From: Antedon mediterranea
Lineage: Eukaryota > Echinodermata > Crinoidea > Comatulida > Antedonidae
NCBI RefSeq assembly: GCF_964355755.1
Contig: NC_092674.1
Location: forward strand, 15,691,001-15,755,000
Direction: 5' to 3'
DNA length: 64,000 bases
In this document: positions 1-63,494 of the stretch, in pieces
How positions within the stretch are numbered: the first letter of the stretch is position 1
Layout: the number at the start of each line of letters is the position of its first letter
Translations under genes and position numbers: made by a program
The notes under the pieces: model-generated
What the model was told of the DNA's origin: nothing
Databases searched by the model: none
The model's input: the letters and a program-made list of their open reading frames with translations, nothing else

Positions 1-78
1 CCTTGCGATTCCCCCAAACGTGGGGAACTCGGGTGTATAATTTATGGTAGCGGGGGACTGCGTTCGCGCTAACCCCCA
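1..78 (+). ncRNA. U1: U1 snRNA, 3' part (cut by window start)
   Basis: Matches U1 nt 90-167 of the complete copies: stem-loop 3, the Sm site and the UUCG stem-loop 4. The 5' half lies outside the window, so it is truncated by the window edge rather than by mutation. Confidence 0.95.
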
Positions 79-426
79 CCCCAATTCGACATTAATATTA
101 GATAAGCCTATGCAGTTCACGATAATCGTTAGTTTAATTAAGAACACTTGATATATAACTATTTATGGTTACATTATCTGTTTTGAAACTTTGTTGGTTT
201 GTAACTATTTATTTTCCCTTAACAACTATTGGTATAGCATATTGACAGGCGTTGAACGCTTCATAATTATTTCGAAGCGTACGAAGAATAATATCAAACT
301 CTAGATTAAACTAAATCAAGTAGTCTATTATAGAACTTAGGTATTTAAATAATTTTATTACTTTCTGTTAAACGATAATTATATTTCACTTACAATATGT
401 ATTAAATGCTATTTATTTATAGATAT
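79..426. other. Convergent 3' spacer of the monomer
   Basis: AT-rich spacer between the U1 3' end and the 3' end of the - strand gene; repeated in every monomer. No conserved open frame is seen. It holds the U1 3' box candidate (91-102), an 11-bp inverted repeat GCGTTGAACGC (249-259), and a hairpin with arms ACGCTTC (256-262) and GAAGCGT (274-280). A second set of AATAAA-type signals lies near 405-420 on the - strand. Confidence 0.7.
249..280. repeat. Overlapping inverted repeats in the 3' spacer
   Basis: GCGTT-G-AACGC at 249-259 is a perfect inverted repeat with a one-base centre. It overlaps a 7-bp hairpin: ACGCTTC at 256-262 pairs with GAAGCGT at 274-280 around an 11-nt AT-rich loop. It is kept in all monomers inspected. 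The role is unknown; it could be a protein-binding site or a 3'-end structure of the opposing transcript. Confidence 0.55.
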
Positions 427-436
427 TTTATTTATT
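427..436 (-). terminator. Polyadenylation signals abutting the stop codon
   Basis: On the - strand the TAA stop (438-436) runs straight into overlapping AATAAA hexamers (436-431 and 432-427). The 3' UTR is therefore probably only a few tens of bases. The arrangement recurs in each monomer except the four 1,697-bp ones, where it is deleted. Confidence 0.65.
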
Positions 437-1287
437 TACATGTCATATTGTTCTTTTCGAAGAAGTTTGGCGATAGAAAACCTTTGACATTTTAGACTCA
501 ATGATGAAGACGTAGTATGTACAGCGTTTAATTGTTCTGTTTCAGTTTGTAAGCAATGCTGTTTTTCTTTGCCATTTCTATCGCTGCAATTCAAGTGGTT
601 TATGGATTGGAGATCTAGCTCCATCGGTGCATTGCGTGATATCGTATACAGGTATGCCACCCACTCGTTGTAAGTGTTGGATGTTACGTGGTACTTCGTT
701 CCATTCACTATAATGATATATGGCAGATAGTATTGCCAACCGTCTGTCAATCGATACCTATAACAAGAAAACAACATTATTTATTAATAACGATGATCAT
801 GTAAATAAATAATAAGGATAATCAATGGTATTTCTGTTAAAATTACAAATGTAAGGAGCATTACTAGTAAAATGACAAAAGTACTGTAACCGAATAAGAA
901 ATGTAAGTAAGTTGCAGGCAGTGAGTTTTATTTAAGAAAAGGTTATTACAAATAATGTGGTAGAAAGAAGTTTCGTATCGATCAGTAAATTACCTCTAAA
1001 GGCCAACATTGTTATTGCAATGAATAAGTTGGTTTAATAATGTAAATCACATACCTGTGTCTGTCAACCTTTTCGATATACGGAGATTCACTGAAGATCT
1101 GTCGAACACATTCTCTGACATTCCTCATATTATACTTCTCCGGACAAATTTTATCAATAATGTGCAGCACGTTTAGAGAACCGCTGGTAGTATCTGGACA
1201 ACGGAGAAGAGCCGCCACAACAAGTTCTTGAAATGAGAGAGGCATCATCAATGTATCGGTGAGATCGGAGAACATCATGCAAGACAT
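436..1287 (-). CDS. Two-exon gene of the U1 repeat, 184 aa, possible winged-helix protein (copy 1)
   Basis: Spliced on the - strand: exon 1 coding part 1055-1287, intron 758-1054 (donor CACAG|GTATGT, acceptor TTGTTATAG|G), exon 2 436-757. The junction codon AG|G encodes Arg78, giving 184 residues. The first ATG is used; an in-frame TAA lies upstream. Residues about 17-82 (from LSFQELVVAALL through RNVRECVRQIF to KVDRHRYRL) have a helix-helix-helix-strand pattern like a winged-helix DNA-binding domain, and the intron falls at the putative wing. Residues about 85-184 match no family I recognise. No signal peptide or membrane span is evident. This copy has Lys in NGKEK where all others have Glu. 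The spliced model is well supported by its splice sites, TATA box and polyA signal; the fold is a guess, and expression is not shown. Confidence 0.72.
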
Positions 1288-1362
1288 ATTTAGGTTATTC
1301 GTCGTTCGGATAATAGTCGAATGGTAGCTTTTCAGATAATTCAGTTGACTTTAATAGTTGAA

Positions 1363-1394
1363 TGCCGTAGAAATCAAAGGCACACCATTTTATA
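1363..1394 (-). promoter_or_regulatory. TATA box and initiator of the - strand gene
   Basis: On the - strand TATAAAA occupies 1394-1388 and an initiator-like CATTC puts its A at 1363, exactly 31 bp downstream of the first T, the usual RNA polymerase II spacing. This predicts a 5' UTR of about 75 nt before the ATG at 1287. The element recurs in each complete monomer; it is broken by insertions at 53,402 and 55,524 and absent from the 978-bp monomer. Confidence 0.65.
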
Positions 1395-1708
1395 AATGTC
1401 TTTGTCGGTTAGATATTAATGAAAGAACAAGAAAAACACAATAGAAACAATGGCTGCGTTGAGTAACGCGGGCGCAATCGCAACAATAAACAATTTTAAA
1501 ACAATAGAAACGGTAAAGCAAAGAAAGCAGATGACACTTTAATGATTTGTCGGTATGAAATTACAACTTCCAATACTATTAAAAACAACTAGCATTTAAA
1601 TTTAGTTGATATGAAAATATGTTTGAGAATAGACTACAGTTAATGTAAGTTACAGAAGAGTATATTACTATTTACATTATGACACTGTAACTGAATATAA
1701 ATACCAGA
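1395..1708. promoter_or_regulatory. Shared divergent upstream region
   Basis: About 310 bp separate the TATA box of the - strand gene from the proximal U1 promoter. The stretch is AT-rich except for a GC-rich island at about 1453-1485 that includes GCGTT-GAGT-AACGC (1456-1469) followed by GCGGGCGCA. U1 genes usually have a distal enhancer 200 or more bp upstream, so this island is a candidate for that element or for a bidirectional one. No TATA lies at -30 of U1, as expected for a polymerase II snRNA gene. Confidence 0.4.
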
Positions 1709-1730
1709 ATGACACTTGTACAACGATACC
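1709..1730 (+). promoter_or_regulatory. Candidate proximal sequence element of U1
   Basis: This lies at -63 to -42 of the U1 start, where animal snRNA genes carry the SNAPc-bound PSE. It begins ATGACACTTGTAC; the TGAC start is shared with vertebrate U1 PSEs, but the rest is weakly similar and the motif differs between phyla. The call rests mainly on position and on conservation in all complete monomers. Confidence 0.35.
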
Positions 1731-1771
1731 AAGCCAATATGTCAGCTAAGAAGGTGGTATGGCGTTTAAGC

Positions 1772-1938
1772 ATACTTACCTGGCACAGGAGCGACTTTGA
1801 TCAGGAAGGAATGTCCTCCCAAGATGAGGCCTCAGCATTGCACACACGGCTGCGGTTGACCCTTGCGATTCCCCCAAACGTGGGGAACTCGGGTGTATAA
1901 TTTATGGTAGCGGGGGACTGCGTTCGCGCTAACCCCCA
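1772..1938 (+). ncRNA. U1: U1 spliceosomal snRNA (copy 1, reference)
   Basis: U1 pairs its 5' end with intron 5' splice sites as the core of the U1 snRNP in the nucleus. Visible features in order: AUACUUACCUG at nt 1-11; stem-loop 1 with the U1-70K loop GAUCAGGAAG (nt 28-37); stem-loop 2 with the U1A loop AUUGCAC (nt 66-72); stem-loop 3 (about nt 89-120); Sm site AAUUUAUGG (nt 128-136); stem-loop 4, GGGGG..CUGCG-UUCG-CGC..CCCCC (nt 141-166). Length about 166-167 nt, against 164 in human. The 5' end is set by the canonical start; the 3' end is approximate. A 3' box candidate follows 12 nt downstream. In this annotation U1 variants are numbered from this copy. Confidence 0.97.
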
Positions 1939-1950
1939 CCCCAATTCGAC

Positions 1951-1962
1951 ATTAATATTAGA
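1951..1962 (+). terminator. Candidate U1 3' box
   Basis: ATTAATATTAGA lies 12 nt past the U1 3' end. It fits the second half of the metazoan snRNA 3' box (AAARNNAGA) at eight of nine positions. The 3' box directs Integrator cleavage of pre-snRNA. It is conserved at the same offset in all complete copies. Confidence 0.5.
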
Positions 1963-2295
1963 TAAGCCTATGCAGTTCACGATAATCGTTAGTTTAATTA
2001 AGAACACTTGATATATAACTATTTATGGTTACATTATCTGTTTTGAAACTTTGTTGGTTTGTAACTATTTATTTTCCCTTAACAACTATTGGTATAGCAT
2101 ATTGACAGGCGTTGAACGCTTCATAATTATTTCGAAGCGTACGAAGAATAATATCAAACTCTAGATTAAACAAAATCAAGTAGTCTATTATAGAACTTAG
2201 GTATTTAAATAATTTTATTACTTTCTGTTAAACGATAATTATATTTCACTTACAATATGTATTAAATGCTATTTATTTATAGATATTTTATTTAT

Positions 2296-3147
2296 TTACA
2301 TGTCATATTGTTCTTTTCGAAGAAGTTTGGCGATAGAAAACCTTTGACATTTTAGACTCAATGATGAAGACGTAGTATGTACAGCGTTTAATTGTTCTGT
2401 TTCAGTTTGTAAGCAATGCTGTTTTTCTTCGCCATTTCTATCGCTGCAATTCAAGTGGTTTATGGATTGGAGATCTAGCTCCATCGGTGCATTGCGTGAT
2501 ATCGTATACAGGTATGCCACCCACTCGTTGTAAGTGTTGGATGTTACGTGGTACTTCGTTCCATTCACTATAATGATATATGGCAGATAGTATTGCCAAC
2601 CGTCTGTCAATCGATACCTATAACAAGAAAACAACATTATTTATTAATAACGATGATCATGTAAATAAATAATAAGGATAATCAATGGTATTTTTGTTAA
2701 AATTACAAATGTAAGGAGCATTACTAGTAAAATGACAAAAGTACTGTAACCGAATAAGTAATGTAAGTAAGTTGCAGGCAGTGAGTTTTATTTAAGAAAA
2801 GGTTATTACAAATAATGTGGTAGAAAGAAGTTTCGTATCGATCAGTAAATTACCTCTAAAGGCCAACATTGTTATTGCAATGAATAAGTTGGTTTAATAA
2901 TGTAAATCACATACCTGTGTCTGTCAACCTTTTCGATATACGGAGATTCACTGAAGATCTGTCGAACACATTCTCTGACATTCCTCATATTATACTTCTC
3001 CGGACAAATTTTATCAATAATGTGCAGCACGTTTAGAGAACCGCTGGTAGTATCTGGACAACGGAGAAGAGCCGCCACAACAAGTTCTTGAAATGAGAGA
3101 GGCATCATCAATGTATCGGTGAGATCGGAGAACATCATGCAAGACAT
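2296..3147 (-). CDS. Two-exon repeat gene, 184 aa (copy 2)
   Basis: Exons 2915-3147 and 2296-2617, both open with canonical splice sites. Carries the majority sequence (NGEEK, IFSESP, RKEQYDM at the C-terminus) and serves as the consensus form. Confidence 0.7.
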
Positions 3148-3631
3148 ATTTAGGTTATTCGTCGTTCGGATAATAGTCGAATGGTAGCTTTTCAGATAAT
3201 TCAGTTGACTTTAATAGTTGAATGCCGTAGAAATCAAAGGCACACCATTTTATAAATGTCTTTGTCGGTTAGATATTAATGAAAGAACAAGAAAAACACA
3301 ATAGAAACAATGGCTGCGTTGAGTAACGCGGGCGCAATCGCAACAATAAACAATTTTAAAACAATAGAAACGGTAAAGCAAAGAAAGCAGATGACACTTT
3401 AATGATTTGTCGGTATGAAATTACAACTTCCAATACTATTAAAAACAACTAGCATTTAAATTTAGTTGATATGAAAATATGTTTGAGAATAGACTACAGT
3501 TAATGTAAGTTACAGAAGAGTATATTACTATTTACATTATGACACTGTAACTGAATATAAATACCAGAATGACACTTGTACAACGATACCAAGCCAATAT
3601 GTCAGCTAAGAAGGTGGTATGGCGTTTAAGC

Positions 3632-3798
3632 ATACTTACCTGGCACAGGAGCGACTTTGATCAGGAAGGAATGTCCTCCCAAGATGAGGCCTCAGCATTG
3701 CACACACGGCTGCGGTTGACCCTTGCGATTCCCCCAAACGTGGGGAACTCGGGTGTATAATTTATGGTAGCGGGGGACTGCGTTCGCGCTAACCCCCA
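3632..3798 (+). ncRNA. U1: U1 snRNA (copy 2)
   Basis: Identical to the reference copy in all domains. Confidence 0.96.
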
Positions 3799-9035: not shown

Positions 9036-9200
9036 ATACTTACCTGGCACAGGAGCGACTTTGATCAGGAAGGAATGTCCTCCCAAGATGAGGCCTCAGC
9101 ATTGCACACACGGCTGCGGTTGACCCTTGCGATTCCCCCAAACGTGGGGAACTCGGGTATAATTTATGGTAGCGGGGGACTGCGTTCGCGCTAACCCCCA
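9036..9200 (+). ncRNA. U1: U1 snRNA with 2-nt deletion before the Sm site (copy 5)
   Basis: Two bases (GU) are missing at about nt 122-125, between stem-loop 3 and the Sm site; the Sm sequence AAUUUAUGG is intact. Shortening the single-stranded linker could affect Sm ring loading or be neutral. Confidence 0.92.
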
Positions 9201-9557
9201 CCCCAATTCGACATTAATATTAGATAAGCCTATGCAGTTCACGATAATCGTTAGTTTAATTAAGAACACTTGATATATAACTATTTATGGTTACATTATC
9301 TGTTTTGAAACTTTGTTGGTTTGTAACTATTTATTTTCCCTTAACAACTATTGGTATAGCATATTGACAGGCGTTGAACGCTTCATAATTATTTCGAAGC
9401 GTACGAAGAATAATATCAAACTCTAGATTAAACAAAATCAAGTAGTCTATTATAGAACTTAGGTATTTAAATAATTTTATTACTTTCTGTTAAACGATAA
9501 TTATATTTCACTTACAATATGTATTAAATGCTATTTATTTATAGATATTTTATTTAT

Positions 9558-10409
9558 TTACATGTCATATTGTTCTTTTCGAAGAAGTTTGGCGATAGAA
9601 AACCTTTGACATTTTAGACTCAATGATGAAGACGTAGTATGTACAGCGTTTAATTGTTCTGTTTCAGTTTGTAAGCAATGCTGTTTTTCTTCGCCATTTC
9701 TATCGCTGCAATTCAAGTGGTTTATGGATTGGAGATCTAGCTCCATCGGTGCATTGCGTGATATCGTATACAGGTATGCCACCCACTCGTTGTAAGTGTT
9801 GGATGTTACGTGGTACTTCGTTCCATTCACTATAATGATATATGGCAGATAGTATTGCCAACCGTCTGTCAATCGATACCTATAACAAGAAAACAACATT
9901 ATTTATTAATAACGATGATCATGTAAATAAATAATAAGGATAATCAATGGTATTTCTGTTAAAATTACAAATGTAAGGAGCATTACTAGTAAAATGACAA
10001 AAGTACTGTAACCGAATAAGAAATGTAAGTAAGTTGCAGGCAGTGAGTTTTATTTAAGAAAAGGTTATTACAAATAATGTGGTAGAAAGAAGTTTCGTAT
10101 CGATCAGTAAATTACCTCTAAAGGCCAACATTGTTATTGCAATGAATAAGTTGGTTTAATAATGTAAATCACATACCTGTGTCTGTCAACCTTTTCGATA
10201 TACGGAGATTCACTGAAGATCTGTCGAACACATTCTCTGACATTCCTCATATTATACTTCTCCGGACAAATTTTATCAATAATGTGCAGCACGTTTAGAG
10301 AACCGCTGGTAGTATCTGGACAACGGAGAAGAGCCGCCACAACAAGTTCTTGAAATGAGAGAGGCATCATCAATGTATCGGTGAGATCGGAGAACATCAT
10401 GCAAGACAT
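9558..10409 (-). CDS. Two-exon repeat gene, 184 aa (copy 4)
   Basis: Exons 10177-10409 and 9558-9879; consensus protein. Confidence 0.7.
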
Positions 10410-10893
10410 ATTTAGGTTATTCGTCGTTCGGATAATAGTCGAATGGTAGCTTTTCAGATAATTCAGTTGACTTTAATAGTTGAATGCCGTAGAAATCAAA
10501 GGCACACCATTTTATAAATGTCTTTGTCGGTTAGATATTAATGAAAGAACAAGAAAAACACAATAGAAACAATGGCTGCGTTGAGTAACGCGGGCGCAAA
10601 CGCAACAATAAACAATTTTAAAACAATAGAAACGGTAAAGCAAAGAAAGCAGATGACACTTTAATGATTTGTCGGTATGAAATTACAACTTCCAATACTA
10701 TTAAAAACAACTAGCATTTAAATTTAGTTGATATGAAAATATGTTTGAGAATAGACTACAGTTAATGTAAGTTACAGAAGAGTATATTACTATTTACATT
10801 ATGACACTGTAACTGAATATAAATACCAGAATGACACTTGTACAACGATACCAAGCCAATATGTCAGCTAAGAAGGTGGTATGGCGTTTAAGC

Positions 10894-32874: not shown

Positions 32875-33041
32875 ATACTTACCTGGCACAGGAGCGACTT
32901 TGACCAGGAAGGAATGTCCTCTCAAGATGAGGCCTCAGCATTGCACACACGGCTGCGGTTGACCCTTGCGATTCCCCCAAACGTGGGGAACTCGGGTGTA
33001 TAATTTATGGTAGCGGGGGACTGCGTTCGCGCTAACCCCCA
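32875..33041 (+). ncRNA. U1: U1 snRNA variant U30C, C48U (copy 18)
   Basis: U30C alters the U1-70K loop from GAUCA to GACCA; C48U as in other copies. Confidence 0.93.
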
Positions 33042-33398
33042 CCCCAATTCGACATTAATATTAGATAAGCCTATGCAGTTCACGATAATCGTTAGTTTAA
33101 TTAAGAACACTTGATATATAACTATTTATGGTTACATTATCTGTTTTGAAACTTTGTTGGTTTGTAACTATTTATTTTCCCTTAACAACTATTGGTATAG
33201 CATATTGACAGGCGTTGAACGCTTCATAATTATTTCGAAGCGTACGAAGAATAATATCAAACTCTAGATTAAACAAAATCAAGTAGTCTATTATAGAACT
33301 TAGGTATTTAAATAATTTTATTACTTTCTGTTAAACGATAATTATATTTCACTTACAATATGTATTAAATGCTATTTATTTATAGATACTTTATTTAT

Positions 33399-33720
33399 TT
33401 ACATGTCATATTGTTCTTTTCGAAGAAGTTTGGCGATAGAAAACCTTTGACATTTTAGACTCAATGATGAAGACGTAGTATGTACAGCGTTTAATTGTTC
33501 TGTTTCAGTTTGTAAGCAATGCTGTTTTTCTTCGCCATTTCTATCGCTGCAATTCAAGTGGTTTATGGATTGGAGATCTAGCTCCATCGGTGCATTGCGT
33601 GATATCGTATACAGGTATGCCACCCACTCGTTGTAAGTGTTGGATGTTACGTGGTACTTCGTTCCATTCACTATAATGATATATGGCAGATAGTATTGCC
33701 AACCGTCTGTCAATCGATAC
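33399..33720 (-). pseudogene. Orphan exon 2 of the repeat gene
   Basis: Exon 2 and its acceptor are intact, but an 882-bp deletion with its junction at about 33,990 has removed exon 1, the promoter and the shared upstream region. No transcript of the normal kind can start here. Confidence 0.85.
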
Positions 33721-33990
33721 CTATAACAAGAAAACAACATTATTTATTAATAACGATGATCATGTAAATAAATAATAAGGATAATCAATGGTATTTCTGT
33801 TAAAATTACAAATGTAAGGAGCATTACTAGTAAAATGACAAAAGTACTGTAACCGAATAAGAAATGTAAGTAAGTTGCAGGCAGTGAGTTTTATTTAAGA
33901 AAAGGTTATTACAAATAATGTGGTAGAAAGAAGTTTCGTATCGATCAGTAAATTACCTCTAAAGGACAACATTGTTATTGCAATGAATAA

Positions 33991-34019
33991 GCGGGGGACT
34001 GCGTTCGCGCTAACCCCCA
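33991..34019 (+). pseudogene. U1: U1 snRNA remnant (stem-loop 4 only)
   Basis: Only U1 nt 139-167 remain, joined directly to the intron of the neighbouring - strand gene. The two parents share AG at the joint (AATAAG and GGTAGC), so end joining with microhomology or slippage is likely. The monomer is 978 bp long. Confidence 0.92.
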
Positions 34020-34376
34020 CCCCAATTCGACATTAATATTAGATAAGCCTATGCAGTTCACGATAATCGTTAGTTTAATTAAGAACACTTGATATATAAC
34101 TATTTATGGTTACATTATCTGTTTTGAAACTTTGTTGGTTTGTAACTATTTATTTTCCCTTAACAACTATTGGTATAGCATATTGACAGGCGTTGAACGC
34201 TTCATAATTATTTCGAAGCGTACGAAGAATAATATCAAACTCTAGATTAAACAAAATCAAGTAGTCTATTATAGAACTTAGGTATTTAAATAATTTTATT
34301 ACTTTCTGTTAAACGATAATTATATTTCACTTACAATATGTATTAAATGCTATTTATTTATAGATACTTTATTTAT

Positions 34377-35228
34377 TTACATGTCATATTGTTCTTTTCG
34401 AAGAAGTTTGGCGATAGAAAACCTTTGACATTTTAGACTCAATGATGAAGACGTAGTATGTACAGCGTTTAATTGTTCTGTTTCAGTTTGTAAGCAATGC
34501 TGTTTTTCTTCGCCATTTCTATCGCTGCAATTCAAGTGGTTTATGGATTGGAGATCTAGCTCCATCGGTGCATTGCGTGATATCGTATACAGGTATGCCA
34601 CCCACTCGTTGTAAGTGTTGGATGTTACGTGGTACTTCGTTCCATTCACTATAATGATATATGGCAGATAGTATTGCCAACCGTCTGTCAATCGATACCT
34701 ATAACAAGAAAACAACATTATTTATTAATAACGATGATCATGTAAATAAATAATAAGGATAATCAATGGTATTTCTGTTAAAATTACAAATGTAAGGAGC
34801 ATTACTAGTAAAATGACAAAAGTACTGTAACCGAATAAGAAATGTAAGTAAGTTGCAGGCAGTGAGTTTTATTTAAGAAAAGGTTATTACAAATAATGTG
34901 GTAGAAAGAAGTTTCGTATCGATCAGTAAATTACCTCTAAAGGCCAACATTGTTATTGCAATGAATAAGTTGGTTTAATAATGTAAATCACATACCTGTG
35001 TCTGTCAACCTTTTCGATATACGGAGATTCACTGAAGATCTGTCGAACACATTCTCTGACATTCCTCATATTATACTTCTCCGGACAAATTTTATCAATA
35101 ATGTGCAGCACGTTTAGAGAACCGCTGGTAGTATCTGGACAACGGAGAAGAGCCGCCACAACAAGTTCTTGAAATGAGAGAGGCATCATCAATGTATCGG
35201 TGAGATCGGAGAACATCATGCAAGACAT
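34377..35228 (-). CDS. Two-exon repeat gene, 184 aa (copy 14)
   Basis: Exons 34996-35228 and 34377-34698; consensus protein. Has GATACTTT instead of GATATTTT past the stop, shared with the copies at 33,399 and 36,237. Confidence 0.7.
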
Positions 35229-35712
35229 ATTTAGGTTATTCGTCGTTCGGATAATAGTCGAATGGTAGCTTTTCAGATAATTCAGTTGACTTTAATAGTT
35301 GAATGCCGTAGAAATCAAAGGCACACCATTTTATAAATGTCTTTGTCGGTTAGATATTAATGAAAGAACAAGAAAAACACAATAGAAACAATGGCTGCGT
35401 TGAGTAACGCGGGCGCAATCGCAACAATAAACAATTTTAAAACAATAGAAACGGTAAAGCAAAGAAAGCAGATGACACTTTAATGATTTGTCGGTATGAA
35501 ATTACAACTTCCAATACTATTAAAAACAACTAGCATTTAAATTTAGTTGATATGAAAATATGTTTGAGAATAGACTACAGTTAATGTAAGTTACAGAAGA
35601 GTATATTACTATTTACATTATGACACTGTAACTGAATATAAATACCAGAATGACACTTGTACAACGATACCAAGCCAATATGTCAGCTAAGAAGGTGGTA
35701 TGGCGTTTAAGC

Positions 35713-44349: not shown

Positions 44350-44961
44350 ATTTAGGTTATTCGTCGTTCGGATAATAGTCGAATGGTAGCTTTTCAGATA
44401 ATTCAGTTGACTTTAATAGTTGAATGCCGTAGAAATCAAAGGCACACCATTTTATAAATGTCTTTGTCGGTTAGATATTAATGAAAGAACAAGAAAAACA
44501 CAATAGAAACAATGGCTGCGTTGAGTAACGCGGGCGCAATCGCAACAATAAACAATTTTAAAACAATAGAAACGGTAAAGCAAAGAAAGCAGATGACACT
44601 TTAATGATTTGTCGGTATGAAATTACAACTTCCAATACTATTAAAAACAACTAGCATTTAAATTTAGTTGATATGAAAATATGTTTGAGAATAGACTACA
44701 GTTAATGTAAGTTACAGAAGAGTATATTACTATTTACATTATGACACTGTAACTGAATATAAATACCAGAATGACACTTGTACAACGATACCAAGCCAAT
44801 ATGTCAGCTAAGAAGGTGGTATGGCGTTTAAGCATACTTACCTGGCACAGGAGCGACTTTGATCAGGAAGGAATGTCCTCCCAAGATGAGGCCTCAGCAT
44901 TGCACACACGGCTGCGGTTGACCCTTGCGATTCCCCCAAACGTGGGGAACTCGGGTGTATA

Positions 44962-46459
44962 TTTATTTATTTATTTATTTGGAATTACACCTTTAGATCG
45001 GTGGCACACTTAGCACAAAGGTGCATCCTTCACAATATAAAATATAACAATTAACAGAAAAGTAAAAAAAGGCAAAAGCAACTATCAACCCCTATCCTAC
45101 CCCCCCCCCCCCCCAATTTACATCGATACATACAGTAGATCATTACTTTACACAATGAATACAAAACAAGATATAGTAAAAGTGTATAAAATAAAATAAA
45201 ATCAGCTGATAAACACAGCTTATTACGAAAAACCCCCAACTCCTCCCCCCTCCCACTTTTTTTTCAATTTACTTAATGTAGCAATGTAGATAACATAGTT
45301 ATTGAGTCATGGAATTCAGTGAATCATTTCGAAATTGCCATGCTTGTTTTAGGTATCTTTTACAAAAACTATCTAAAATATGTTCACACTCTTCATCAAT
45401 TAAATTATCTGAGTATCCCAAAATATATTTAAGTTTGTCATTTTCAAGAGAAGTATAAAAAGTATCAAACATATCTTTGCTGCCATTTCTATACATATCC
45501 ACATATAAATTAAATAATTCCTGATTACGTATATTATTTAAAGCTGGACAATTAAGGATGAAATGATGGATGTCTTCGTCCGAATTTGTACCGCACAATT
45601 TACATTTTTTATTATTATCAATATTCCAATTTGCAGTTCTATCATACAAAGGTAGAGTATTTGAACGAGCTTTAAATTTTAATGCAGCACCTTCAAAATT
45701 AGTTTTATCAATTAAGTAATTTTCAAGTCCAGGTTTTGATTTTAATGTTTCATAGATGTGGAGACTTGATTTATTTTGTAATTCAATTCTCCATTCATCT
45801 ATCATTATATAGTTAAGTTTTCTTAAGATTTCAGAAATTGGAAAGTAGACTTCTTTATAATTTGAGAGAGTGGTGAAAATATTTTTGGATTCACAATTAC
45901 ACTTCAAGAGAATATCGTTTATACAAGATAGAAACTTATACCTTAAGTCTTTAAATTCACAATTAAGTTGTAGCATTCCAATAAACATAATTTTTGGCCA
46001 TCGATAGTTTTCCATCTTTATAATTCTATGGAAGTATTTCATACGAAGAGCGTTATGAATCTCGTTAATTGGAGACCAGCCAAGCTCTCCATATAAGGCG
46101 GCACAAGGTGTATTTCGAGGTGCTTTTAAGATATAACGTGCCATTTGGAGCTGGAGACGCTCTAGTTTATCTATATCTATTCTACTTAAAGAGCACCATA
46201 CTGAACAACCATAGTTGATAGATGGGAGAACTATCGATCTCCACAGAGTATCCCCATAATATACTCTGTTAAAGTTATCAAAGCTACTGATAATTGATTT
46301 AACGTACGCTATTAATCTTTGACCTTTTTTTATAACATTCTCAATTTGTATATGGTCATTTAATTTACGAGAAATATGTACACCGAGATATTTATATGAT
46401 TCAGTTTCAGATATAAAGCCATTACCTAATTTCCATTGTCTTACTTTATCAACATCAAC
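44962..46459 (-). mobile_element. 5'-truncated non-LTR retrotransposon (LINE) in U1
   Basis: The element lies antisense to U1. Its 3' end is a (AAAT)n tail next to base 44,962, and its 5' end is truncated at 46,459. GTATA flanks it (44957-44961 and 46460-46464), the expected short target-site duplication. It holds the C-terminal part of a reverse transcriptase plus about 340 bp of 3' UTR containing a C-rich tract near 45,102-45,114. The catalytic reverse transcriptase core is absent, so it cannot move itself. Confidence 0.92.
45299..46459 (-). pseudogene. C-terminal fragment of LINE reverse transcriptase
   Basis: About 386 residues remain, starting just before the YKYLGVHIS segment that follows the palm of LINE reverse transcriptases; the catalytic DD box is missing. 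Then come NYGCSVW and the thumb-like region (LERLQLQMARYIL), and near the C-terminus a zinc-binding pattern C-x2-C-x8-H-x5-C (CKLCG..HHFILNC) typical of several LINE clades. The frame is open into antisense U1 upstream but has no AUG there, only a GTG. Clade not assigned. The frame is otherwise undamaged, so the insertion is probably young. Confidence 0.88.
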
Positions 46460-46860
46460 GTATAATTTATGGTAGCGGGGGACTGCGTTCGCGCTAACCC
46501 CCACCCCAATTCGACATTAATATTAGATAAGCCTATGCAGTTCACGATAATCGTTAGTTTAATTAAGAACACTTGATATATAACTATTTATGGTTACATT
46601 ATCTGTTTTGAAACTTTGTTGGTTTGTAACTATTTATTTTCCCTTAACAACTATTGGTATAGCATATTGACAGGCGTTGAACGCTTCATAATTATTTCGA
46701 AGCGTACGAAGAATAATATCAAACTCTAGATTAAACAAAATCAAGTAGTCTATTATAGAACTTACGTATTTAAATAATTTTATTACTTTCTGTTAAACGA
46801 TAATTATATTTCACTTACAATATGTATTAAATGCTATTTATTTATAGATATTTTATTTAT

Positions 46861-47712
46861 TTACATGTCATATTGTTCTTTTCGAAGAAGTTTGGCGATA
46901 GAAAACCTTTGACATTTTAGACTCAATGATGAAGACGTAGTATGTACAGCGTTTAATTGTTCTGTTTCAGTTTGTAAGCAATGCTGTTTTTCTTCGCCAT
47001 TTCTATCGCTGCAATTCAAGTGGTTTATGGATTGGAGATCTAGCTCCATCGGTGCATTGCGTGATATCGTATACAGGTATGCCACCCACTCGTTGTAAGT
47101 GTTGGATGTTACGTGGTACTTCGTTCCATTCACTATAATGATATATGGCAGATAGTATTGCCAACCGTCTGTCAATCGATACCTATAACAAGAAAAGAAC
47201 ATTATTTATTAATAACGATGATCATGTAAATAAATAATAAGGATAATCAATGGTATTTCTGTTAAAATTACAAATGTAAAGAGCATTACTAGTAAAATGA
47301 CAAAAGTACTGTAACCGAATAAGTAATGTAAGTAAGTTGCAGGCAGTGAGTTTTATTTAAGAAAAGGTTATTACAAATAATGTGGTAGAAAGAAGTTTCG
47401 TATCGATCAGTAAATTACCTCTAAAGGCCAACATTGTTATTGCAATGAATAAGTTGGTTTAATAATGTAAATCACATACCTGTGTCTGTCAACCTTTTCG
47501 ATATACGGAGATTCACTGAAGATCTGTCGAACACATTCTCTGACATTCCTCATATTATACTTCTCCGGACAAATTTTATCAATAATGTGCAGCACGTTTA
47601 GAGAACCGCTGGTAGTATCTGGACAACGGAGAAGAGCCGCCACAACAAGTTCTTGAAATGAGAGAGGCATCATCAATGTATCGGTGAGATCGGAGAACAT
47701 CATGCAAGACAT
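46861..47712 (-). CDS. Two-exon repeat gene, 184 aa (copy 18)
   Basis: Exons 47480-47712 and 46861-47182; consensus protein. One intron base near the acceptor differs (GAAAAGAAC in + sense), shared with the copy at 48,721. First monomer of the more divergent right part. Confidence 0.7.
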
Positions 47713-48196
47713 ATTTAGGTTATTCGTCGTTCGGATAATAGTCGAATGGTAGCTTTTCAGATAATTCAGTTGACTTTAATAGTTGAATGCCGTAGAAATC
47801 AAAGGCACACCATTTTATAAATGTCTTTGTCGGTTAGATATTAATGAAAGAACAAGAAAAACACAATAGAAACAATGGCTGCGTTGAGTAACGCGGGCGC
47901 AATCGCAACAATAAACAATTTTAAAACAATAGAAACGGTAAAGCAAAGAAAGCAGATGACACTTTAATGATTTGTCGGTATGAAATTACAACTTCCAATA
48001 CTATTAAAAACAACTAGCATTTAAATTTAGTTGATATGAAAATATGTTTGAGAATAGACTACAGTTAATGTAAGTTACAGAAGAGTATATTACTATTTAC
48101 ATTATGACACTGTAACTGAATATAAATACCAGAATGACACTTGTACAACGATACCAAGCCAATATGTCAGCTAAGAAGGTGGTATGGCGTTTAAGC

Positions 48197-51920: not shown

Positions 51921-52087
51921 ATACTTACCTGGCACAGGAGCGACTTTGATCAGGAAGGAATGTCCTCCCAAGATGAGGCCTCAGCATTGCACACACGGCT
52001 ACGGTTGACCCTTGCGATTCCCCCAAACGTGGGGAACTCGGGTGTATAATTTATGGTAGCGGGGGACTGCGTTCGCGCTAACCCCCA
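51921..52087 (+). ncRNA. U1: U1 snRNA variant G81A (copy 26)
   Basis: G81A lies on the 3' side of stem 2, below the U1A loop; stem-loop 4 is of the reference type. Confidence 0.94.
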
Positions 52088-52444
52088 CCCCAATTCGACA
52101 TTAATATTAGATAAGCCTATGCAGTTCACGATAATCGTTAGTTTAATTAAGAACACTTGATATATAACTATTTATGGTTACATTATCTGTTTTGAAACTT
52201 TGTTGGTTTGTAACTATTTATTTTCCCTTAACAACTATTGGTATAGCATATTGACAGGCGTTGAACGCTTCATAATTATTTCGAAGCGTACGAAGAATAA
52301 TATCAAACTCTAGATTAAACAAAATCAAGTAGTCTATTATAGAACTTACGTATTTAAATAATTTTATTACTTTCTGTTAAACGATAATTATATTTCACTT
52401 ACAATATGTATTAAATGCTATTTATTTATAGATATTTTATTTAT

Positions 52445-53296
52445 TTACATGTCATATTGTTCTTGTCGAAGAAGTTTGGCGATAGAAAACCTTTGACATT
52501 TTAGACTCAATGATGAAGACGTAGTATGTACAGCGTTTAATTGTTCTGTTTCAGTTTGTAAGCAATGCTGTTTTTCTTCGCCATTTCTATCGCTGCAATT
52601 CAAGTGGTTTATGGATTGGAGATCTAGCTCCATCGGTGCATTGCGTGATATCGTATACAGGTATGCCACCCACTCGTTGTAAGTGTTGGATGTTACGTGG
52701 TACTTCGTTCCATTCACTATAATGATATATGGCAGATAGTATTGCCAACCGTCTGTCAATCGATACCTATAACAAGAAAACAACATTATTTATTAATAAC
52801 GATGATCATGTAAATAAATAATAAGGATAATCAATGGTATTTCTGTTAAAATTATAAATGTAAGGAGCATTACTAGTAAAATGACAAAAGTACTGTAACC
52901 GAATAAGTAATGTAAGTAAGTTGCAGGCAGTGAGATTTATTTAAGAAAAGGTTATTACAAATAATGTGGTAGAAAGAAGTTTCGTATCGATCAGTAAATT
53001 ACCTGTAAAGGCCAACATAGTTATTGCAATGAATAAGTTGGTTTAATAATGTAAATCACATACCTGTGTCTGTCAACCTTTTCGATATACGGAGATTCAC
53101 TGAAGATCGGACGAACACATTCTCTGACATTCCCCATATTATACTTCTCCGGACAAATTTTATCAATAATGTGCAGCACGTATAGAGAACCGCTGGTAGT
53201 ATCTGGACAACGGAGAAGAGCCGCCACAACAAGTTCTTGAAATGAGAGAGGCATAATCAATGTATCGGTGAGATCGGAGAACATCATGCAAGACAT
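52445..53296 (-). CDS. Two-exon repeat gene, 184 aa, promoter interrupted (copy 20)
   Basis: Exons 53064-53296 and 52445-52766. Changes in the putative winged helix: M-to-I (LIMPL), N-to-Y (SLYV), R-to-G (MGNV) and Q-to-P (VRPIF); also RQEQ. The TATA box upstream is broken by the insertion at 53,403, so expression is doubtful. Confidence 0.55.
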
Positions 53297-53402
53297 ATTT
53301 AGGTTATTCGTCGTTCGGATAATAGTCGAATGGTAGCTTTTCAGATAATTCAGTTGACTTTAATAGTTGAATGCCGTAGAAATCAAAGGCACACCATTTT
53401 AT

Positions 53403-53664
53403 TATTATTATTATTATTGTTATTATTTATTGCCAAAAACCAGTTACAAACAAACAAAACACAGAAACTAAGGGAGTAGGCAGGAACCTAAAAGTGAACC
53501 TAATCACTATAACAAGAGTTCAGGTTCCGTACTCCCAAAGTAACAACAATGATATAAAATAAACTATATAAAAATATTTAAAAAACAAATAGACGAATCA
53601 ACAGTGTCAATATAAAATAAACGGATAAAGTACATAATAGTAAAAGTACATTATAGTAAACAAT
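53403..53664. mobile_element. 262-bp retroelement-like insertion in the TATA box
   Basis: The normal ..CATTTTAT|AAATG.. is split. The insert begins with a (TTA)n run, as expected for the tail of a - strand retroelement, and ends AAACAAT; at least AT is shared at both joints. It contains a strong inverted repeat: GGGAGTA (53472-53478) with TACTCCC (53530-53536), and GGAACCT (53483-53489) with AGGTTCC (53522-53528). The insertion turns TATAAAA into AATAAAA on the - strand. No coding capacity; a SINE or a short LINE 3' end are both possible. Confidence 0.7.
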
Positions 53665-54042
53665 AAATGTCTTTGTCGGTTAGATATTAATGAAAGAACA
53701 AGAAAAACACAATAGAAACAATGGCTGCGTTGAGTAACGCGGGCGCAATCGCAACAATAAACAATTTTAAAACAATAGAAACGGTAAAGCAAAGAAAGCA
53801 GATGACACTTTAATGATTTGTCGGTATGAAATTACAACTTCCAATACTATTAAAAACAACTAGCATTTAAATTTAGTTGATATGAAAATATGTTTGAGAA
53901 TAGACTACAGTTAATGTAAGTTACAGAAGAGTATATTACTATTTACATTATGACACTGTAACTGAATATAAATACCAGAATGACACTTGTACAACGATAC
54001 CAAGCCAATATGTCAGCTAAGAAGGTGGTATGGCGTTTAAGC

Positions 54043-54209
54043 ATACTTACCTGGCACAGGAGCGACTTTGATCAGAAAGGAATGTCCTCCCAAGATGAGG
54101 CCTCAGCATTGCACACACGGCTGCGGTTGACCTTTGCGATTCCCCCAAACGTGGGGAACTCGGGTGTATAATTTATGGTAGCGGGGGACTGCGTTCGCGC
54201 TAACCCCAA
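54043..54209 (+). ncRNA. U1: U1 snRNA variant G34A, C91U, C166A (copy 27)
   Basis: G34A changes the U1-70K loop from GAUCAGGAAG to GAUCAGAAAG; C91U lies in stem-loop 3; C166A in stem-loop 4. The most divergent U1 of the window. Confidence 0.92.
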
Positions 54210-54566
54210 CCCCAATTCGACATTAATATTAGATAAGCCTATGCAGTTCACGATAATCGTTAGTTTAATTAAGAACACTTGATATATAACTATTTATGGT
54301 TACATTATCTGTTTTGAAACTTTGTTGGTTTGTAACTATTTATTTTCTCTTAACAACTATTGGTATAGCATATTGACAGGCGTTGAACGCTTCATAATTA
54401 TTTCGAAGCGTACGAAGAATAATATCAAACTCTAGATTAAACAAAATCAAGTAGTCTATTATAGAACTTACGTATTTAAATAATTTTATTACTTTCTGTT
54501 AAACGATAATTATATTTCACTTACAATATGTATTAAATGCTATTTATTTATAGATATTTTATTTAT

Positions 54567-55418
54567 TTACATGTCATATTGTTCTTGTCGAAGAAGTTTG
54601 GCGATAGAAAACCTTTGACATTTTAGACTCAATGATGAAGACGTAGTATGTACAGCGTTTAATTGTTCTGTTTCAGTTTGTAAGCAATGCTGTTTTTCTT
54701 CGCCATTTCTATCGCTGCAATTCAAGTGGTTTATGGATTGGAGATCTAGCTCCATCGGTGCATTGCGTGATATCGTATACAGGTATGCCACCCACTCGTT
54801 GTAAGTGTTGGATGTTACGTGGTACTTCGTTCCATTCACTATAATGATATATGGCAGATAGTATTGCCAACCGTCTGTCAATCGATACCTATAACAAGAA
54901 AACAACATTATTTATTAATAACGATGATCATGTAAATAAATAATAAGGATAATCAATGGTATTTCTGTTAAAATTATAAATGTAAGGAGCATTACTAGTA
55001 AAATGACAAAAGTACTGTAACCGAATAAGTAATGTAAGTAAGTTGCAGGCAGTGAGTTTTATTTAAGAAAAAATTATTACAAATAATGTGGTAGAAAGAA
55101 GTTTCGTATCGATCAGTAAATTACCTGTAAAGGCCAACATAGTTATTGCAATGAATAAGTTGGTTTAATAATGTAAATCACATACCTGTGTCTGTCAACC
55201 TTTTCGATATACGGAGATTCACTGAAGATCGGACGAACACATTCTCTGACATTCCCCATATTATACTTCTCCGGACAAATTTTATCAATAATGTGCAGCA
55301 CGTTTAGAGAACCGCTGGTAGTATCTGGACAACGGAGAAGAGCCGCCACAACAAGTTCTTGAAATGAGAGAGGCATAATCAATGTATCGGTGAGATCGGA
55401 GAACATCATGCAAGACAT
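54567..55418 (-). CDS. Two-exon repeat gene, 184 aa, promoter interrupted (copy 21)
   Basis: Exons 55186-55418 and 54567-54888. Shares LIMPL, MGNV, VRPIF and RQEQ with the left neighbour, but has the usual Asn in SLNV. TATA box broken by the insertion at 55,525. Confidence 0.55.
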
Positions 55419-55524
55419 ATTTAGGTTATTCGTCGTTCGGATAATAGTCGAATGGTAGCTTTTCAGATAATTCAGTTGACTTTAATAGTTGAATGCCGTA
55501 GAAATCAAAGGCACACCATTTTAT

Positions 55525-55785
55525 TATTATTATTATTATTGTTATTATTTATTGCCAAAAACCAGTTACAAACAAACAAACACAGAAACTAAGGGAGTAG
55601 GCAGGAACCTAAAAGTGAACCTAATCACTATAACAAGAGTTCAGGTTCCGTACTCCCAAAGTAACAACAATGATATAAAATAAACTATATAAAAATATTT
55701 AAAAAACAAATAGACGAATCAACAGTGTCAATATAAAATAAACGGATAAAGTACATAATAGTAAAAGTACATTATAGTAAACAAT
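55525..55785. mobile_element. 261-bp copy of the TATA-box insertion
   Basis: Same insertion at the same base of the monomer as 53,403-53,664, one A shorter (AAACAAACAC). Identical position and neighbouring substitutions show that the insertion was copied with its monomer by unequal exchange, not inserted twice. Confidence 0.72.
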
Positions 55786-56163
55786 AAATGTCTTTGTCGG
55801 TTAGATATTAATGAAAGAACAAGAAAAACACAATAGAAACAATGGCTGCGTTGAGTAACGCGGGCGCAATCGCAACAATAAACAATTTTAAAACAATAGA
55901 AACGGTAAAGCAAAGAAAGCAGATGACACTTTAATGATTTGTCGGTATGAAATTACAACTTCCAATACTATTAAAAACAACTAGCATTTAAATTTAGTTG
56001 ATATGAAAATATGTTTGAGAATAGACTACAGTTAATGTAAGTTACAGAAGAGTATATTACTATTTACATTATGACACTGTAACTGAATATAAATACCAGA
56101 ATGACACTTGTACAACGATACCAAGCCAATATGTCAGCTAAGAAGGTGGTATGGCGTTTAAGC

Positions 56164-58023: not shown

Positions 58024-58190
58024 ATACTTACCTGGCACAGGAGCGACTTTGATCAGAAAGGAATGTCCTCCCAAGATGAGGCCTCAGCATTGCACACACG
58101 GCTGCGGTTGACCCTTGCGATTCCCCCAAACGTGGGGAACTCGGGTGTATAATTTATGGTAGCGGGGGACTGCGTTCGCGCTAACCCCAA
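58024..58190 (+). ncRNA. U1: U1 snRNA variant G34A, C166A (copy 29)
   Basis: Same two changes as copy 28. Confidence 0.93.
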
Positions 58191-58547: not shown

Positions 58548-59400
58548 TTACATGTCATATTGTTCTTGTCGAAGAAGTTTGGCGATAGAAAACCTTTGAC
58601 ATTTTAGACTCAATGATGAAGACGTAGTATGTACAGCGTTTAATTGTTCTGTTTCAGTTTGTAAGCAATGTTGTTTTTCTTCGCCATTTCTATCGCTGCA
58701 ATTCAAGTGGTTTATGGATTGGAGATCTAGCTCCATCGGTGCATTGCGTGATATCGTATACAGGTATGCCACCCACTCGTTGTAAGTGTTGGATGTTACG
58801 TGGTACTTCGTTCCATTCACTATAATGATATATGGCAGATAGTATTGCCAACCGTCCTGTCAATCGATACCTATAACAAGAAAACAACATTATTTATTAA
58901 TAACGATGATCATGTAAATAAATAATAAGGATAATCAATGGTATTTCTGTTAAAATTACAAATGTAAGGAGCATTACTAGTAAAATGACAAAAGTACTGT
59001 AACCGAATAAGTAATGTAAGTAAGTTGCAGGCAGTGAGTTTTATTTAAGAAAAGGTTATTACAAATAATGTGGTAGAAAGAAGTTTCGTATCGATCAGTA
59101 AATTACCTGTAAAGGCCAACATTGTTATTGCAATGAATAAGTTGGTTTAATAATGTAAATCACATACCTGTGTCTGTCAACCTTTTCGATATACGGAGAT
59201 TCACTGAAGATCTGACGAACACATTCTCTGACATTCCTCATATTATACTTCTCCGGACAAATTTTATCAATAATGTGCAGCACGTTTAGAGAACCGCTGG
59301 TAGTATCTGGACAACGGAGAAGAGCCGCCACAACAAGTTCTTGAAATGAGAGAGGCATCATCAATGTATCGGTGAGATCGGAGAACATCATGCAAGACAT
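58548..59400 (-). pseudogene. Repeat gene with 1-bp insertion in exon 2
   Basis: An extra C near 58,856 (CCGTCCTGTC) shifts the frame just after the splice junction (YRLTG..). The predicted product is about 137 residues. Exon 1 59168-59400 is open. Confidence 0.8.
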
Positions 59401-59884
59401 ATTTAGGTTATTCGTCGTTCGGATAATAGTCGAATTGTAGCTTTTCAGATAATTCAGTTGACTTTAATAGTTGAATGCCGTAGAAATCAAAGGCACACCA
59501 TTTTATAAATGTCTTTGTCGGTTAGATATTAATGAAAGAACAAGAAAAACACAATAGAAACAATGGCTGCGTTGAGTAACGCGGGCGCAATCGCAACAAT
59601 AAACAATTTTAAAACAATAGAAACGGTAAAGCAAAGAAAGCAGATGACACTTTAATGATTTGTCGGTATGAAATTACAACTTCCAATACTATTAAAAACA
59701 ACTAGCATTTAAATTTAGTTGATATGAAAATATGTTTGAGAATAGACTACAGTTAATGTAAGTTACAGAAGAGTATATTACTATTTACATTATGACACTG
59801 TAACTGAATATAAATACCAGAATGACACTTGTACAACGATACCAAGCCAATATGTCAGCTAAGAAGGTGGTATGGCGTTTAAGC

Positions 59885-60051
59885 ATACTTACCTGGCACA
59901 GGAGCGACTTTGATCAGGAAGGAATGTCCTCCCAAGATGAGGCCTCAGCATTGCACACACGGCTGCGGTTGACCCTTGCGATTCCCCCAAACGTGGGGAA
60001 CTCGGGTGTATAATTTATGGTAGCGGGGGACTGCGTTCGCGCTAACCCCCA
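59885..60051 (+). ncRNA. U1: U1 snRNA (copy 30)
   Basis: Identical to the reference, although its neighbours on the left are variants. Confidence 0.96.
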
Positions 60052-60408
60052 CCCCAATTCGACATTAATATTAGATAAGCCTATGCAGTTCACGATAATC
60101 GTTAGTTTAATTAAGAACACTTGATATATAACTATTTATGGTTACATTATCTGTTTTGAAACTTTGTTGGTTTGTAACTATTTATTTTCCCTTAACAACT
60201 ATTGGTATAGCATATTGACAGGCGTTGAACGCTTCATAATTATTTCGAAGCGTACGAAGAATAATATCAAACTCTAGATTAAACAAAATCAAGTAGTCTA
60301 TTATAGAACTTACGTATTTAAATAATTTTATTACTTTCTGTTAAACGATAATTATATTTCACTTACAATATGTATTAAATGCTATTTATTTATAGATATT
60401 TTATTTAT

Positions 60409-61258
60409 TTACATGTCATATTGTTCTTGTCGAAGAAGTTTGGCGATAGAAAACCTTTGACATTTTAGACTCAATGATGAAGACGTAGTATGTACAGCGT
60501 TTAATTGTTCTGTTTCAGTTTGTAAGCAATGCTGTTTTTCTTCGCCATTTCTATCGCTGCAATTCAAGTGGTTTATGGATTGGAGATCTAGCTCCATCGG
60601 TGCATTGCGTGATATCGTATACAGGTATGCCACCCACTCGTTGTAAGTGTTGGATGTTACGTGGTACTTCGTTCCATTCACTATAATGATATATGGCAGA
60701 TAGTATTACCAACCGTCTGTCAATCGATACCTATAACAAGAAAACAACATTATTTATTAATAACGATGATCATGTAAATAAATAATAAGGATAATCAATG
60801 GTATTTCTGTTAAAATTACAAATGTAAGGAGCATTACTAGTAAAATGACAAAGTACTGTAACCGAATAAGTAATGTAAGTAAGTTGCAGGCAGTGAGTTT
60901 TATTTAAGAAAAGGTTATTACAAATAATGTGGTAGAAAGAAGTTTCGTATCGATCAGTAAATTACCTGTAAAAACCAACATTGTTATTGCAATGAATAAG
61001 TTGGTTTAATAATGTAAATCACATACCTGTGTCTGTCAACCTTTTCGATATACGGAGATTCACTGAAGATCTGACGAACACATTCTCTGACATTCCTCAT
61101 ATTATACTTCTCCGGACAAATTGTATCAATAATGTGCAGCACGTTTAGAGAACCGCTGGTAGTATCTGGACAACGGAGAAGAGCCGCCACAACAAGTTCT
61201 TGAAATGAGAGAGGCATCATCAATGTATCGGTGAGATCGGAGAACTCATGCAAGACAT
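60409..61258 (-). pseudogene. Repeat gene with stop and exon 1 frameshift
   Basis: Two independent lesions. A CAA-to-TAA change (60706-60708) ends the protein after the DGW of exon 2. One base is missing in exon 1 near 61,246 (AGAACTCATGC), so the normal ATG is out of frame. Dead copy. Confidence 0.85.
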
Positions 61259-61742
61259 ATTTAGGTTATTCGTCGTTCGGATAATAGTCGAATGGTAGCT
61301 TTTCAGATAATTCAGTTGACTTTAATAGTTGAATGCCGTAGAAATCAAAAGCACACCATTTTATAAATGTCTTTGTCGGTTAGATATTAATGAAAGAACA
61401 AGAAAAACACAATAGAAACAATGGCTGCGTTGAGTAACGCGGGCGCAATCGCAACAATAAACAATTTTAAAACAATAGAAACGGTAAAGCAAAGAAAGCA
61501 GATGACACTTTAATGATTTGTCGGTATGAAATTACAACTTCCAATACTATTAAAAACAACTAGCATTTAAATTTAGTTGATATGAAAATATGTTTGAGAA
61601 TAGACTACAGTTAATGTAAGTTACAGAAGAGTATATTACTATTTACATTATGACACTGTAACTGAATATAAATACCAGAATGACACTTGTACAACGATAC
61701 CAAGCCAATATGTCAGCTAAGAAGGTGGTATGGCGTTTAAGC

Positions 61743-61909
61743 ATACTTACCTGGCACAGGAGCGACTTTGATCAGGAAGGAATGTCCTCCCAAGATGAGG
61801 CCTCAGCATTGCACGCACGGCTGCGGTTGACCCTTGCGATTCCCCCAAACGTGGGGAACTCGGGTGTATAATTTATGGTAGCGGGGGACTGCGTTCGCGC
61901 TAACCCCCA
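61743..61909 (+). ncRNA. U1: U1 snRNA variant A73G (copy 31, last)
   Basis: A73G directly follows the AUUGCAC loop of stem-loop 2. It is the last U1 of the array; its upstream region is complete. Confidence 0.94.
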
Positions 61910-62266
61910 CCCCAATTCGACATTAATATTAGATAAGCCTATGCAGTTCACGATAATCGTTAGTTTAATTAAGAACACTTGATATATAACTATTTATGGT
62001 TACATTATCTGTTTTGAAACTTTGTTGGTTTGTAACTATTTATTTTCCCTTAACAACTATTGGTATAGCATATTGACAGGCGTTGAACGCTTCATAATTA
62101 TTTCGAAGCGTACGAAGAATAATATCAAACTCTAGATTAAACAAAATCAAGTAGTCTATTATAGAACTTACGTATTTAAATAATTTTATTACTTTCTGTT
62201 AAACGATAATTATATTTCACTTACAATATGTATTAAATGCTATTTATTTATAGATATTTTATTTAT

Positions 62267-62352
62267 TTACATGTCATATTGTTCTTGTCGAAGAAGTTTG
62301 GCGATAGAAAACCTTTGGCATTTTAGACTCAATAAAGAAGACGTAGTATGTA
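62267..62352 (-). pseudogene. Terminal exon 2 remnant at the array edge
   Basis: The last 86 bp of exon 2 with the stop and polyA signals remain, with extra substitutions (TTTGGCATT, CAATAAAGAAG in + sense). Homology stops at GTATGTA, 62,352, where unique sequence with a short (TA)n begins. This is the array boundary. Confidence 0.85.
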
Positions 62353-63466: not shown

Positions 63467-63494
63467 GTTTTACGGTATACGACGAGGGTCTACG

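Follow-up and report, generated by a model that had tools for sequence, protein, structure and literature searches.

A predicted spliced protein gene of a small orphan family carried in the repeat unit of a feather-star U1 snRNA array

What is a spliced protein-coding gene doing inside a tandem repeat of U1 small nuclear RNA (snRNA) genes? In the usual view, tandem snRNA and ribosomal RNA units contain RNA genes plus spacer, or else partners from classic multicopy families. The question is raised by a 64,000-nucleotide stretch (G000:C5:15691001-15755000, hereafter the window) of a feather-star genome of 354 Mb in 18 contigs, in which each U1 repeat unit also holds a divergent two-exon gene predicted to encode a protein of 184 residues. 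The explanation that we favor, with a probability of roughly 65%, is that a gene of an orphan family was captured by the U1 repeat and amplified together with U1, that it still works and is spliced to yield the 184-residue protein, and that it is a passenger with regard to its copy number.

The extent of the array on contig C5 was determined by a blastn search in which one unit was compared with the window and with the sequence on either side of it. The results revealed that the whole tandem array occupies G000:C5:15,662,746-15,753,352 and contains 47 U1 5' ends. The array continues 28 kb to the left of the window, the start of which falls inside another U1 copy; unit homology ends at window position 62352, and non-unit sequence bounds the array at both ends. 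In the window, 32 matches to the Rfam family RF00003 were obtained, all on the plus strand and head to tail, with scores of 87-130 bits, above the Rfam threshold. Thirty-one of these genes are uninterrupted and one, at 44834, is split by a 1,493-bp insertion, which bears out the original prediction of an array with at least 31 full-length U1 genes reaching position 62352. Over the whole array, 24 of the 47 U1 copies are identical across 167 nt, 20 carry 1-3 substitutions, and three carry an indel or insertion. The feature is the main U1 snRNA gene array. Its usual unit is 1,860 bp long and comprises U1 and the divergent protein gene; when the array is divided at each U1 start, 24 of the resulting 47 segments (the final one is incomplete) measure 1,860 bp, seven 1,697 bp, and three 1,847 bp, the two shorter lengths resulting from deletions of 163 and 13 bp in or beside exon 2.

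The protein gene lies on the strand opposite to U1, its ATG being 484 bp away from the next U1, and consists of a 233-nt exon 1, a 297-nt intron with a GTATGT donor and a TTATAG acceptor, and an exon 2 with the stop codon and AATAAA. The GTATGT donor and a matching acceptor were found in all 46 whole gene copies of the array; the intron is 297 nt long in 44 of them and 294 or 296 nt in the other two. TATAAAA stands 107 nt 5' of the ATG in 43 of the 46 copies. At 38 places of the array, the stop/poly(A) stretch occurs without a change. The predicted product has 184 residues in 33 copies, 160 in seven, and 120 in three, and is frameshifted in three (138, 137, and 12 residues); in the window, the 184-residue frame is kept in 22 of 32 copies. 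The divergent two-exon gene with splice sites, TATA and poly(A) signals, and 22 copies open across the splice, as described in the original prediction, was reproduced in these respects. A retained in-frame intron, in keeping with a 304-aa open frame printed for many copies, was considered and rejected: direct translation of the reference copy revealed intron stops in every frame, so that retention of the intron closes the frame. We infer that the gene is transcribed and spliced.

Relatives of the protein were identified in databases and in the same genome. A search of 5.8 billion proteins returned P0001, a 250-aa protein from an ENA contig of 2,283 bp (51% identity, E = 5.5e-40). A four-row profile (A3) matched P0002, the uncharacterised 204-aa protein LOC117100230 of Anneissia japonica (46% identity over 98% of the query, E = 1.8e-49). 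Anneissia japonica is likewise a feather star (Crinoidea, Comatulida); over alignment columns 1-122, its protein and that of the array agree at 71 of 118 residues. A third homologue search added nothing to these two database relatives. On contig C5, two intronless paralogues were found, F1 at 4970708 with a 134-aa frame and F2 at 5881613 with 214 aa, together with F3 near 4977012-4981563, an interrupted and shifted copy of F2. Apart from the array and a mutated copy on contig C11 (see below), the significant genomic relatives are 42-56% identical to the array protein, and the Rfam search detected no U1 in the 10 kb around F1 or around F2. The original prediction named, as one half of what would refute it, the absence of any homologue or fold match; homologues exist in P0001, in Anneissia, and among the paralogues of this genome.

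The splice is supported independently because the relatives align across the junction, and the genomic DNA of F1 and F2 is uninterrupted at the position of the array intron. Given GT-AG sites, a frame that is open only if spliced, and relatives that are collinear over the junction, we regard the protein gene as real, and its structure and relatives are taken as established at the level of the sequence. AGGTAT occurs at both intron ends (AG/GTATGT and AG/GTATCG). These ends and the intronless paralogues fit an insertion with a six-base target duplication that may have supplied a splice site; the repeat of AGGTAT may also be due to chance, and F1 and F2 may have lost an intron. Retroposition was also considered as the origin of F1 and F2 and was not retained. 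In both, the upstream part shows weak similarity to the array gene and contains TATA-like boxes; therefore, plain duplication is as likely as retroposition.

Selection on the family was analyzed with one array copy, F1, and F2 over 120 codons, leaving out F3 and the C11 copy. Under the GY codon model, omega was 0.30 (log likelihood -1188.2, compared with -1208.4 at omega 1, which is 20 log units worse). The pairwise nonsynonymous distance (dN) from the array gene to F2 and F1 was 0.376-0.377 and that from F1 to F2 was 0.436; because its distances to both lie below the latter, the array gene is not the fast-evolving member. In a protein tree with weakly supported forks, the array branch measured 0.31, compared with 0.24, 0.42, 0.64, and 0.68 for the others. 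These codon comparisons indicate that the family is under purifying selection.

We further investigated the fold of the protein. Pfam, PDB sequence, and profile searches with the array protein yielded chance-level rows only, and comparison with a linker-histone profile gave no match to the family. PF00250 (forkhead) was not among the Pfam families matched by the five family members scanned; one non-array member matched PMG at 0.0032. The AlphaFold2 (AF2) model of the Anneissia relative exhibits the element order of a winged helix, and forkhead proteins account for 44 of the 50 rows shown by VIA-align and 47 of the 50 shown by Foldseek with this model. The AF2 model of P0001, with a predicted local distance difference test score (pLDDT) of 32, was unusable. 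Profile comparison is insensitive in this setting because the control, forkhead versus linker histone (H1), reached only 16%. In view of the modeled fold, the protein is most likely a nuclear DNA-binding factor of the winged-helix (forkhead-like) type, in line with the earlier lead that it may bind DNA; it differs from forkhead (PF00250) and other winged-helix proteins in that it has no Pfam, PDB-sequence, or hhalign match.

The U1 side of the unit was examined by using 46 unit rows, the first, rearranged unit being left out. The 1,860-bp unit contains 82 variable sites, and not one single-nucleotide polymorphism (SNP) falls in the 214 bp 5' of U1 (permutation p = 0.0024). In each of the 12 U1 and U2 upstream stretches, taken from 10 loci, the best match to ATGACACT, a box resembling a proximal sequence element, falls between -61 and -64; the C11 U1 was omitted from this set, its upstream part being array sequence. 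The match is within two mismatches in 11 of the 12; the U2 gene on C1 has three, tied with another place. Shuffled sequences reach the match in 0-1.2% of cases at four loci and 17-19% at two (six U1 loci only). Two extra copies of ATGACACT stand in the array at -93 and -241 of U1. We take the box as established; this box near -62, common to U1 and U2 loci, and the SNP-free stretch 5' of U1 support the function of U1.

Other snRNA genes of the genome provided a comparison. A pattern search covering 5' ends within two mismatches and family searches covering the best 42 U1 and best 46 U2 candidates revealed dispersed U1 genes at least on C3 (one), C9 (two), C5 (two, one degenerate), and C11 (a broken copy). 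The three on C3 and C9 share one sequence that is 88% identical to the array U1; because of this identity level, array and dispersed U1 represent different types. Non-canonical pairs in the Rfam alignments number three in the dispersed and six in the array type. The U2 genes have their own tandem array (G000:C3:13659899-13714335), and dispersed U2 genes also occur on C1, C3, and C8 among the best 46 candidates. The two arrays are alike in their tandem snRNA genes and in a like promoter box at -62; they differ in that the U2 unit is 780 bp long where read and has no protein gene, no ATG frame longer than 45 aa being present in the 1,660 bp of the U2 array that were read. Therefore, a protein gene is not the general state of the snRNA arrays of this animal.

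According to our preferred explanation, the U1 repeat unit would have captured a gene of a small orphan crinoid family, the other members of which are here single, intronless, and located on C5. After capture, the array gene would have gained, or alone retained, one 297-bp intron, and unequal crossing-over and conversion would have amplified and homogenised U1 and the gene jointly, approximately 46-fold. U1 would be transcribed in one direction from an snRNA-type promoter with a proximal box at approximately -62, and the protein gene in the other direction from its own TATA promoter, its transcript then being spliced; the protein is probably still made. The high copy number of the gene would be a by-product of U1 amplification rather than its purpose, and truncated copies would be tolerated. 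Capture, the direction of the intron change, and passenger status are what we infer.

Several observations weigh against this explanation. F1 and F2 may have lost the intron instead. The AF2 model is of modest confidence (four rows; mean pLDDT 50, with 65-86 in residues 21-90), none of the Foldseek E-values is better than 0.06, and hhalign against a forkhead profile of eight domains, all of which match PF00250, gave a probability of 0.5%. The U1 RNA region is not poor in SNPs, with nine variable sites in 167 bp, and some loci match the promoter box poorly. The omega value of 0.30 is an average across three genes. Within the array, 13 of the 46 gene copies are truncated, and coding SNP types number 8 synonymous to 17 nonsynonymous, compared with 346 to 1310 possible (Fisher p = 0.21), one of the nonsynonymous types being a stop; because of this p value, present selection on single copies is not demonstrated.

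A captured gene that is no longer expressed as protein, with frames persisting because the array is young and homogenised, would account for the truncated copies, for the nonsense SNP and the high-frequency replacement SNPs in the array, and for the nonsignificance of purifying selection within it. However, donor and acceptor are present in every copy, TATAAAA in 43 of 46, and the exact stop/poly(A) stretch at 38 places; most relatives have longer branches than the array protein, and the 71 of 118 residues shared with Anneissia are too many for long neutrality. We consider such decay unlikely. Slightly less probable in our view is a dosage-coupled regulator: a DNA-binding protein would have been retained in the repeat for its action on snRNA genes or on the cells with the greatest need of U1, such as oocytes and early embryos, and U1 and the factor would thereby rise in copy number together. 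The divergent layout with its 484 bp between ATG and U1, the forkhead-like modeled fold, and the 33 intact copies are compatible with it, and the 88% identity of array and dispersed U1 recalls the sea-urchin U1 switch (PMC4291461, in excerpt). The paralogues are nevertheless without linked U1, the U2 array as read holds no such gene, truncated copies are common, and selection within the array is not detectable.

A more specific form of this proposal, in which a winged-helix protein expressed from the shared divergent region in oocytes or early embryos controls the snRNA (or chromatin) output of the array and thereby doses itself, appears doubtful to us. The link to U1 function raised in the original prediction has so far gained no support, given family members lacking a nearby U1, a U2 array lacking the gene, and the 13 truncated copies; a selected regulator accounts for these three findings no better than a passenger does. 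Collapsed or misjoined repeats are very improbable. Long, near-identical tandem repeats are indeed hard to assemble, but deletions, insertions, and SNPs are scattered among the units and set them apart, non-unit sequence lies at either end of the array, and a mutated copy of the unit with U1 and gene is also present on C11.

Some units are rearranged or interrupted. The insertion in the U1 gene of unit u24 (44967-46459) repeats an 11-bp U1 stretch (nt 124-134) and contains a minus-strand 386-aa frame and a TTTA-rich tail at its left; we take the frame to resemble the end of the reverse transcriptase of a long interspersed nuclear element (LINE), truncated at its 5' end. On C11, much of the unit (U1 and gene) recurs in mutated form at G000:C11:8940574-8951817, with several insertions. 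Two of these, located in U1 near nt 124-131 and in exon 2, share one inverted-repeat element, which is 97% alike over approximately 2 kb and oppositely oriented in the two. A U1-specific transposon was considered and rejected: the elements that interrupt U1 near nt 124-134 are unlike, LINE-like in the window and with inverted repeats on C11, and because of this dissimilarity the shared site is more likely due to chance. Apparently one 260-bp insertion occurs in two adjacent units (53403-53662 and 55525-55783), which suggests that a unit was duplicated after the insertion. An out-of-register fusion at 32875-33991 joins unit position 1117 (intron) to position 138 (U1). Directly right of the array, short satellite-like repeats with 16-bp and 17-bp units occupy 63490-63745 and 63370-63420. 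The left flank (G000:C5:15652001-15662745) contains a nested tandem repeat and a minus-strand 436-aa frame, presumably resembling a Penelope-like element.

Table 1. Coordinates of the array, the reference copies of its parts, and the successive units (window positions)
Feature	Position	Strand	Remarks
Tandem U1/protein-gene array portion in window	1..62352	.	blastn of one unit
U1 snRNA reference copy	1772..1938	+	RF00003, 130.4 bits
ATGACACT, proximal-sequence-element-like box, -63 of U1	1709..1716	+	position common to other U1/U2 loci
SNP-free 214 bp 5' of U1	1558..1771	+	46 unit rows
Protein-gene TATAAAA, -107 from ATG	1388..1394	-	43/46 copies
Exon 1 coding sequence, reference gene copy (unit u0)	1055..1287	-	sequence read and translation
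297-bp GT-AG intron, AGGTAT at both splice sites	758..1054	-	stops in every frame
Exon 2 coding sequence including stop; product 184 residues	436..757	-	sequence read and translation
AATAAA directly 3' of stop	427..432	-	read directly
Unit u1	1772..3631		U1 1772-1938; gene 3147..2296; 184 aa
Unit u2	3632..5478		gene from 4994; 13-bp deletion; 120 aa
Unit u3	5479..7175		gene from 6691; 163-bp deletion; 160 aa
Unit u4	7176..9035		gene from 8551; 184 aa
Unit u5	9036..10893		U1 with 2-bp deletion; gene from 10409; 184 aa
Unit u6	10894..12740		gene from 12256; 120 aa
Unit u7	12741..14600		gene from 14116; 184 aa
Unit u8	14601..16297		gene from 15813; 160 aa
Unit u9	16298..18157		gene from 17673; 184 aa
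Unit u10	18158..20017		gene from 19533; 184 aa
Unit u11	20018..21877		gene from 21393; 184 aa
Unit u12	21878..23574		gene from 23090; 160 aa
Unit u13	23575..25434		gene from 24950; 184 aa
Unit u14	25435..27294		gene from 26810; 184 aa
Unit u15	27295..29154		gene from 28670; 184 aa
Unit u16	29155..31014		gene from 30530; 184 aa
Unit u17	31015..32874		gene from 32390; 184 aa
Unit u18	32875..35712		fused with partial unit, junction 33990/33991; gene from 35228; 184 aa
Unit u19	35713..37572		gene from 37088; 184 aa
Unit u20	37573..39429		gene from 38945; intron 294 bp; 184 aa
Unit u21	39430..41126		gene from 40642; 160 aa
Unit u22	41127..42973		gene from 42489; 120 aa
Unit u23	42974..44833		gene from 44349; 184 aa
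Unit u24	44834..48196		LINE-like fragment (44967-46459) within U1; gene from 47712; 184 aa
Unit u25	48197..50056		gene from 49572; 184 aa
Unit u26	50057..51920		gene from 51436; frameshifted; 138 aa
Unit u27	51921..54042		260-bp insertion; gene from 53296; 184 aa
Unit u28	54043..56163		259-bp insertion, same place as in u27; gene from 55418; 184 aa
Unit u29	56164..58023		gene from 57539; 184 aa
Unit u30	58024..59884		gene from 59400; frameshifted; 137 aa
Unit u31	59885..61742		gene from 61258; frameshifted after 12 aa
Last, partial unit	61743..62352		U1 61743-61909 and 3' part of exon 2

A protein gene within a U1 repeat is not described in the literature on snRNA genes and arrays and on crinoid genomes that was covered, most older work lying outside that coverage. 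In this locus, a U1 unit includes a spliced orphan-family gene, most copies of which are intact and homogenised. Such an array is a natural setting in which to test how a protein gene fares once its dosage is coupled to the dosage of a splicing RNA, and how an intron changes right next to the RNA by which introns are recognised. Binding of the protein to snRNA promoters, if it occurs, would make it an unusual built-in regulator; if it doses itself in the manner considered above, the supply of U1 and its own regulator would have been amplified together.

Sea urchins and Xenopus have tandem repeated, embryonic-type U1 genes, and the 5S-histone unit is a composite repeat. The feather-star array resembles those of sea urchins and Xenopus in its near-identical, head-to-tail U1 genes beside a few dispersed U1 genes of another type, and its unit differs from theirs, which are not known to include a protein gene, by the spliced protein gene. 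A developmental switch between U1 genes is described in sea urchins (PMC4291461, in excerpt), and the array U1 differs in sequence from the dispersed U1 as an early/late pair of the sea-urchin type would. Composite repeats combine 5S with U1 in a crustacean (a study cited in PMC3123226) and U1 with U2 in hake, a fish (PMC4696792, in excerpt). The feather-star unit is similar to such composites, 5S-histone included, in that two unrelated gene types share one unit; however, the partners there are classic multicopy families, whereas U1 is here partnered by a spliced gene from an orphan protein family.

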